Below, piece by piece: positions 25,006-34,087 of a stretch of 64,000 bases of DNA. Numbering within the stretch: position 1 is the stretch's first letter; each line of letters starts with the position of its first letter. Source of the stretch: Butyrivibrio fibrisolvens 16/4. Lineage in GTDB: Bacteria; Bacillota; Clostridia; Lachnospirales; Lachnospiraceae. The translations under genes were made by a program, and so were the position numbers. The DNA lies in the NCBI GenBank assembly GCA_000209815.1, contig FP929036.1, forward strand, positions 2,842,768 to 2,906,767, in the 5' to 3' direction. A model generated the notes under the pieces. The model did no database searches. It saw nothing but the letters and a program-made list of their open reading frames with translations, and had not been told where the DNA came from.

Positions 25006-25122
25006 GGGTTATCTCAAGCCTTGTTATATGTGGGTTCTCAAAAATACAATTGTCATATTTAACAAAACATCTAACCGAACATTGAGCTTTCTGACAATTC
25101 TGCATTTTATAGCTCAATTATC

Positions 25123-25150
25123 TTGCAATTTGCAAATCACAGGCTATAAT
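25123..25150 (+). promoter_or_regulatory. Promoter of the candidate repeat RNA
   Basis: TTGCAA (25123-25128), 16-bp spacer, perfect TATAAT (25145-25150). Predicted start near 25157. No coding sequence follows. Confidence 0.65.
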
Positions 25151-25184
25151 AATATTAACAACAGAGAAATAATATTATGGAAAG

Positions 25185-25442
25185 GGAGGTACGGTCCACC
25201 AAAACATTAAGAATTTATTGAAATGGTTTTATTAAAATCTAGTGATTGGAGGTATGGTCCACCAGAAGATTAAATTTTAAAACCAAGTAAGATGTTAAAA
25301 TCTGGGAAATGGAGGTACAGTCCACCAGAGAATTAAGTTTTAACACACGCGACAATTTCATTAAGAGGTCCATCAATGATTAAAAGTTTTCAAATGGACA
25401 GCAACAATGAAAAATAAAGCTGAATGAGAGGTACAGTCCATT
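25185..25442 (+). repeat. Five imperfect repeats spaced 63, 63, 53 and 63 bp
   Basis: Unit starts at 25185, 25248, 25311, 25364 and 25427. Units 1-3 open GGAGGTAYRGTCCACC followed by an ATTAA block about 20 bases in. Unit 4 opens AAGAGGTCC (internal deletion) and unit 5 GAGGTACAGTCCATT. The intervals match 6, 6, 5 and 6 helical turns at 10.5 bp per turn. The DNA between cores is AT-rich and also partly conserved. Confidence 0.85.
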
Positions 25443-25457
25443 GGGATCGAATTTCAG

Positions 25458-25510
25458 GGGCGGCATCAGCTAGGAATCAAGTGGTTTCGAGTTGGTGTCG
25501 CCCGTTTTTT
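25458..25510 (+). terminator. Terminator of the repeat RNA
   Basis: 13-bp stem with G-T pairs (25458-25470 with 25491-25503), 20-base loop, then T6 (25505-25510). Confidence 0.75.
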
Positions 25511-25518
25511 GCATATTT

Positions 25519-29339: not shown

Positions 29340-29349
29340 CTTTAACCAA

Positions 29350-29434
29350 TGCGGAAGGCGGGACTTGAACCCGCACGCTCGCAATGAGCACAAGATCCTT
29401 AGTCTTGCTCGTCTGCCAGTTCCGACACTTCCGC
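29350..29434 (-). tRNA. tRNA-Leu (anticodon AAG), left copy
   Basis: 85-nt class II tRNA. Acceptor GCGGAAG/CTTCCGC, anticodon stem CAAGA/TCTTG with loop CTAAGGA (anticodon AAG), long variable arm, T-arm GCGGG-TTCAAGT-CCCGC. Identical over its full length to the copy at 34003-34087 on the other strand. A34 implies wobble deamination to inosine by a TadA-type enzyme. Confidence 0.96.
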
Positions 29435-29475
29435 AAGAACTCTTTTGAAGTTCGTTTGTCTCAACGACAAGACAT

Positions 29476-34002: not shown

Positions 34003-34087
34003 GCGGAAGTGTCGGAACTGGCAGACGAGCAAGACTAAGGATCTTGTGCTCATTGCGAGCGTGCGGGTTCAAGTCCCGCCTTCCGCA
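34003..34087 (+). tRNA. tRNA-Leu (anticodon AAG), right copy
   Basis: Identical 85-nt sequence to the tRNA at 29350-29434 but on the plus strand, making an 85-bp inverted repeat about 4.6 kb apart. CCA is not encoded. Confidence 0.96.

Follow-up and report, generated by a model that had tools for sequence, protein, structure and literature searches.

Within the window, a stretch of 64,000 nt from the genome of Butyrivibrio fibrisolvens 16/4, the interval 25157-25510 may well specify a free-standing RNA of about 355 nt, with an inferred start near 25157 and an end near 25510 (Table 1). Both transcription signals proposed in an earlier sequence-only reading of this DNA are present. The TTGCAA-16-TATAAT promoter is kept in the window's genus, Pseudobutyrivibrio, where TATAAT is invariant across 26 aligned loci and TTGCAA is found in 25 of them (locus L021 has TTGAAA), and the stem terminator with its T6 tract covaries among the 26 genus sequences, 4 of 22 predicted pairs being kept through changes on both sides. 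Two conserved blocks 5' of the promoter form a possible activator or UP-element site; TCTGACAA, from this upstream region, is identical in all 26 genus loci, and such conservation suggests that expression of the RNA is regulated. As to a regulon controlled through the same block, the genome holds, besides the one exact site, a single further site with three mismatches (L200). The predicted transcript folds better than shuffled sequences (z -4.7).

Table 1. Features of the locus in window coordinates
Feature	Position	Strand	Details
Conserved blocks 5' of the promoter (ACAAAACAT, CGAACATTGAGCTTTCTGACAA)	25062..25097	+	genus alignment
Promoter	25123..25150	+	-35 TTGCAA 25123-25128, 16 nt, -10 TATAAT 25145-25150; sequence and genus alignment
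Unit 1	25180..25210	+	SD GGAGG 25185-25189, spacer ending CCA, pseudo-start CCA 25199-25201, AAA CAT, in-frame stop TAA 25208-25210
Unit 2	25243..25273	+	SD GGAGG 25248-25252, pseudo-start CCA 25262-25264, GAA GAT, stop TAA 25271-25273
Unit 3	25306..25336	+	SD GGAGG 25311-25315, pseudo-start CCA 25325-25327, GAG AAT, stop TAA 25334-25336
Conserved element ACACGCGACAA, between last internal and terminal unit	25345..25355	+	genus alignment
Hairpin GUCCAU/AUGGAC	25368..25399	+	arms 25368-25373 and 25394-25399; fold, genus alignment
Terminal unit	25428..25473	+	SD GAGG 25428-25431, start TTG 25441-25443, 10-codon frame, stop TAG 25471-25473 within terminator stem
Intrinsic terminator	25458..25510	+	stem 25458-25471/25490-25503, inner hairpin, T6 25505-25510

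Between promoter and terminator lie repeat units, for which five cores had been claimed. Four are real, with the core GAGGTAYRGTCCA at 25186, 25249, 25312 and 25428; these are the sole matches in the window when one mismatch is allowed (0.08 expected), and the whole 3.16-Mb genome contains no exact copies beyond these four. The supposed copy at 25364 (GAGGTCCATC) lacks the core and belongs to the 5' arm of the GUCCAU/AUGGAC hairpin, which leaves core spacings of 63, 63 and 116 nt in place of the 63, 63, 53 and 63 first given. This hairpin was found in the 12 genus loci nearest the window, and the element ACACGCGACAA, whose last base varies, in all aligned genus loci but L025 (25 of 26). The spacing is not conserved among relatives. 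Genus loci carry one to three internal units 52-68 nt apart, with 57-77 nt to the last unit, or 115-119 nt where the extra hairpin intervenes; in other genera, 37 of the 49 spacings under 90 nt measure 50-58 nt.

A BLAST search with positions 25100-25515 matched the locus in 26 of 29 Pseudobutyrivibrio genomes, the window's own included, and the three genomes with no match are 91, 83 and 77% complete. For the wider family, the sequence-only reading had proposed a covariance-model search across Lachnospiraceae. A first model, built on the 3' module, found matches in 56 of 397 genomes, and a second model (R2), rebuilt from distant matches of the first, found them in 122 of 299 sampled genomes, some with two or three. 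In a draw across the class, 21 of 391 genomes matched, of which 11 belong to other families and gave weak matches without exception (E 1.7e-5 to 6.5e-4); judged by eye, the succession of Shine-Dalgarno sequence (SD), start and stop is present in four of the 11 (L107, L112, L114, L116), absent in five (L110, L111, L115, L117, L118) and ambiguous in two (L108, L109). What the relatives have in common is the promoter, at least one unit and a terminal unit at the terminator, while the remainder of the RNA differs. A second element, a hairpin with a variable stem and the constant loop UGACGAGAAAG, lies mid-RNA in 24 of 101 relatives (among them L092, L094 and L040) and is lacking in the window. The counts of family units derive from these 101 loci, a part of all matches chosen by rank and flank, with some genomes giving two or three. 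Two loci cut by contig ends were fetched and left unused (L144, L170), L050 and L056 were left out of the statistics, and L037, being nearly identical to the window's genus, was left out of the terminal-frame, internal-triplet and stop counts and included in the foot-of-stem and spacing measures.

No Rfam family matches the locus above its gathering score; in 20 relatives, the matches above that score are just the neighbouring tRNA and Clostridiales-1. The latter RNA (RF01699, 77.4 bits) lies in L041 at 1004-1126 on the minus strand, a few hundred bases from the RNA described here. No account of such an RNA came up in the literature searched, which covered neither subscription journals nor preprints, and the excerpts of one paper (PMC5171806) contain nothing on it. 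A phage origin was set aside after a scan of viral contigs gave no match to an exact pattern, which represents the family form and would miss the window's own units.

In relatives, each internal unit consists of an SD, a spacer ending in CCA, one triplet at the position of a start codon and an in-frame stop. The Shine-Dalgarno-like GGAGG noted earlier is carried by units 1-3, and the start/stop pattern fits that of ribosome sites. Internal units (n=110) were collected with a regular expression blind to what follows, which admits a few false units (L141, L146, L095), counted here as misses; the stop is absent from the expressions, although the columns of the covariance models include the stretch that holds it. 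In 80 of the 110 units a stop follows at a distance of exactly 9 nt from the start position, compared with a mean of 5.6 at 18 other offsets. The triplet itself is mostly CCA or CCG: CCN occurs in 72 units, ATG or TTG in just 15 and other triplets in 23 (AAG 11, ACA 4, AAA 3), and the stop at offset 9 is present irrespective of its identity (55/72, 10/15 and 15/23, respectively). Within the window's genus, 60 of 64 internal units have the stop at offset 9; in this set, used also for the pairing shuffles below, two units (of L007 and L009) enter twice and one (of L011) is missed. In L195 a single RNA displays the pattern, its seven internal units spaced at 51-57 nt and followed by the terminal one; the start positions read CCA, AAG, AAA, CCG, AAA, ATG, ATG and finally ATG, and an in-frame stop comes after each. 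We know of no initiation rule that explains why a stop is kept after CCA or CCG. Counting against a pure reading of frame, 10 of the 110 units have an out-of-frame stop at offset 10, and an element acting at the nucleotide level may underlie the stop register.

The terminal unit differs in having a start codon and a tiny frame. An expression for SD, spacer and start matched 98 of 100 loci, the two failures (L191, L192) having by eye ATG with 6 codons and GTG with 7; the SD and start are partly given by construction, because units of this kind went into the models that detected the loci. Among the 98, the start is ATG in 66 and TTG in 32, the frame has 5 codons in 77, 6 in 15, 7 in 4, 10 in 1 and 12 in 1, and the stop is TAG in 45, TAA in 42 and TGA in 11. 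In 96 of 98 loci the frame meets its first stop at codon 6-8, where shuffling the letters of the 24 nt after the start gives an expectation of 16.4. In 99 of 99 loci, pairing begins within or after the stop, at -5 to +1 counted from its end (-5 being the floor of the measure, because folding was started 2 nt ahead of the stop), which puts the stop at the foot of the terminator. The window's genus has instead a 10-codon frame ending inside the stem in 25 of 26 loci, L030 stopping after 5 codons. An initiating ribosome reaches about five codons downstream of its P site, and the terminal site thus looks cut to fit between SD and terminator.

Pairing of the units with the 3' end of 16S rRNA was predicted with a consensus tail, the genome's own 16S end having been looked for and not found. 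With this tail, units 1-3 reach -24.1, -23.5 and -22.6 kcal/mol and the terminal unit -14.9, compared with a median of -7.6 and a best value of -15.0 kcal/mol for 50 window ORFs (first ATG of ORFs of at least 150 codons, starts uncurated). Among 421 GAGG sites, units 1, 2 and 3 rank first, second and third in predicted pairing, the terminal unit 47th and the false unit at 25364 263rd. Shuffling the part 3' of the SD weakens the predicted pairing of the genus internal units from -22.4 to -16.6 kcal/mol, a cost of 5.8, with 42 of 64 units at or below the best of 20 shuffles; for the genus terminal units the cost is 2.5 kcal/mol and 1 of 26 reaches the best of 20. Across the family classes, the cost is 3.0-3.9 kcal/mol, with 7 of 72 (CCN), 22 of 72 and 13 of 38 units reaching the best of 20, and it shrinks to 2.0-2.6 kcal/mol with another form of the tail. 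Against E. coli rRNA, five of the six types of unit have the 16S end as one of their three best sites, and two of them have it as the best, yet with some units other segments equal or surpass it, and it falls outside the best four for the terminal unit of the window. Together, the shuffles and the E. coli comparison make the predicted extended pairing strong in the genus and only suggestive elsewhere. Specially accessible SDs were also considered, and fold prediction offers no support, with probabilities of being unpaired of 0.38-0.44 for the SDs vs 0.52 for the rest of the RNA. A 2026 study demonstrates by cryo-EM that the ribosome of a Firmicute accommodates SD pairing longer than the canonical helix, and finds extended SDs accompanying non-canonical starts that function at about 10%, in one case up to 30%, of AUG (PMC13009471).

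No gene family recurs in more than four of 20 surrounding regions (12 kb each, one 9.8 kb). The next downstream ORF of at least 80 codons is on the strand of the RNA in 11 of the 20 regions; in the window it is on the opposite strand, and the transcript would end at its own terminator. These results do not support a leader-peptide attenuator of a downstream gene. Elsewhere in the window, tRNA-Leu with the anticodon AAG, unusual in bacteria, occurs twice in opposite orientation and with equal Rfam scores, at 29349-29435 (-) and 34003-34087 (+).

We propose, with a probability of about one half, that the locus represents a family of free-standing RNAs across the Lachnospiraceae built as arrays of ribosome-docking units. 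Each internal unit would offer a strong SD, extended in the genus by a 3' flank complementary to the 16S rRNA 3' region and separated by 9 nt from a triplet that in most cases is no start codon and has an in-frame stop after it; in the last unit there would be a real start codon and a frame of about five codons (10 in the genus) that ends at the foot of the terminator stem or inside it. On such an RNA, 30S subunits or initiating ribosomes would bind the units in a row, unable to elongate or stopping at once, and would stay on the RNA or cycle through it, the usual spacing of 50-60 nt leaving room for about one ribosome per unit. What the sequences themselves show is the conservation, the architecture and the stop register; the pairing with 16S rRNA is predicted, and we infer that 30S or 70S particles dock at each unit without productive elongation. 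The likely effect would be an RNA coated with ribosomal subunits, which takes up 30S, is stabilised in proportion to free 30S, or both. Its role may be ribosome titration, sensing or only protection of the RNA itself. A more specific and quite tentative version holds that the RNA is dedicated to titrating or sensing ribosomes: extended SDs at non-start triplets would hold 30S, immediate stops would block elongation, and occupancy, which would report free 30S and the stringency of initiation, would set both the stability of the RNA and its global effect on translation.

Less probable than this, and on the whole unlikely, is that the SD units only shield the RNA, by the STAB-SD principle in which RNase J1, a 5'-3' exonuclease, is halted by a 30S subunit bound close to the 5' end, the actual function being exerted by the variable middle region or through pairing with mRNAs. 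The STAB-SD of the cry3A mRNA of Bacillus thuringiensis is an SD-like sequence that pairs with the 16S 3' end with no initiation, the bound 30S blocking RNase J1 (PMC4113751). In accordance with such a role, unit 1, some 28 nt downstream of the inferred start of transcription, is SD-like with no start codon, and across the family the most 5' unit has CCN at the start position in 58 of 78 loci and ATG in 7. However, up to seven internal units and a conserved 3' terminal unit exceed what protection needs, in-frame stops are no part of STAB-SD, the middle region in which the function would reside differs between genera, and the RNA is not an mRNA leader, having its own terminator and no constant downstream gene in the 20 regions.

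Improbable, to a greater degree, is a sponge or decoy whose units are hairpins for an RNA-binding protein, the resemblance to SDs arising because ribosome-binding sites are what such a protein normally covers. The small hairpin proposed earlier can form, with a UAYRGU loop, but is weak in units 1-3 (-3.5 to -4.5 kcal/mol); the CCN units of other genera lend it some support. There, in the fold GG-A-GGU-ACGG-ACC-A-CC and among units that have U7, the base W can pair with it in 50 of 62 CCN units vs 27 of 105 others (p=3.6e-12, a value that like all p-values here ignores the relatedness of the genomes), whereas in the window's three internal units this pair is U-U. The hairpin may modulate access to the SD in other genera; it leaves unexplained the units that lack the outer CC (ATG, AAG and ACA units) and the stop register, which a sponge does not predict, and the bases due to pair are GG in just 47 of 72 CCN units. 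CsrA, the best-known protein of this kind, does not co-occur with the RNA, being found in 66 of 122 RNA-positive vs 88 of 177 RNA-negative genomes (p=0.48, relatedness again ignored) and giving no match in 56 RNA-positive genomes, which speaks against a CsrA sponge.

We consider it more improbable still that the RNA is a messenger for minimal peptides or that the units are the ends of longer small proteins (..RYGPPxx). Terminal peptides such as MDSIV, MDEIV and LDSIV do recur, with synonymous exchange (GAT/GAC, AGT/AGC, GAA/GAG), but four related genomes of one genus encode LENQT, LEILN, LEISE and LEKQK, so length and not sequence is kept. Additionally, codon 4 is ATA in 39 of 98 frames and the other isoleucine codons are absent from the 12 most frequent codons listed, so that the nucleotides or a rare codon, and not isoleucine, may be under selection. 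For longer proteins, the core reads R-Y-x-P-P in the frame of the stop (AGG TAY RGW CCA CCN), all four proline codons are used at the last position, and units 2 and 3 of the window have upstream in-frame ATGs; however, an upstream in-frame stop precedes any ATG, GTG or TTG in 138 of 182 units, which are therefore mostly not the ends of longer proteins, and in 17 of 72 terminal units the tyrosine codon, two codons ahead of the start triplet, is replaced by TAA; for these reasons the longer reading was dropped. Finally, of the two possibilities raised by the sequence-only reading, a new repeat-bearing small RNA with ribosome-site-like sequence is well supported by its conservation, promoter, covarying terminator, lack of an Rfam match and start/stop pattern, and a phased operator array, in which every core would face the same side of the DNA helix and for which the 63, 63 and 116 bp between the window's cores might speak, is refuted by the 52-77 nt spacings in relatives, which cover no constant phase, and by the position of the units between promoter and terminator with a stop register.

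If ribosomes bind the units of the proposed docking RNA, the small ribosomal subunit would have a decoy or sensor that is itself genetically encoded. No example of this regulatory principle came up in the literature searched (again exclusive of subscription journals and preprints). The RNA would also be a natural system in which to learn how initiation in Firmicutes is shaped by extended SD pairing, by non-start triplets and by immediate stops. At least 122 of the 299 genomes sampled from this major gut and rumen family contain it, and yet it has no Rfam family.

Several known systems resemble parts of this arrangement. The CsrB/RsmZ-type RNAs, which are sponges for CsrA, are likewise stand-alone RNAs with repeated GGA-bearing units and a terminator; the RNA described here differs in showing no co-occurrence with CsrA, in its GGA, which would lie in an SD or in the stem, not the loop, of the predicted small hairpin, and in its in-frame stops. 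With STAB-SD it shares an SD-like sequence that does not direct initiation, here with predicted 16S pairing, but STAB-SD is a single element in an mRNA leader, whereas this is a free-standing RNA with one to several units, in-frame stops and a tiny terminal frame at the terminator (PMC4113751). The STAR repeats of Staphylococcus aureus reportedly recruit ribosomes when expressed and start small ORFs (PMC13009471), and are alike in joining repeats to small frames and to ribosome recruitment, which is proposed here; they are dispersed and have ORFs of variable length, in contrast to a tandem array on one dedicated transcript with fixed, very short frames. The S. aureus genes infC, ccpN and cvfC1 combine an extended SD with a poor start codon, AUA or AUU (PMC13009471), similar to the extended SD pairing and poor start position of the units, which differ in that CCA or CCG usually occupies the start position and in that they precede no gene. 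Finally, should the titration or sensing role hold, the RNA could be regarded as a ribosomal counterpart of 6S RNA; the two are not homologous and would be alike in mimicking what a core machine takes as its substrate. A 6S RNA is encoded separately, elsewhere in the genome.
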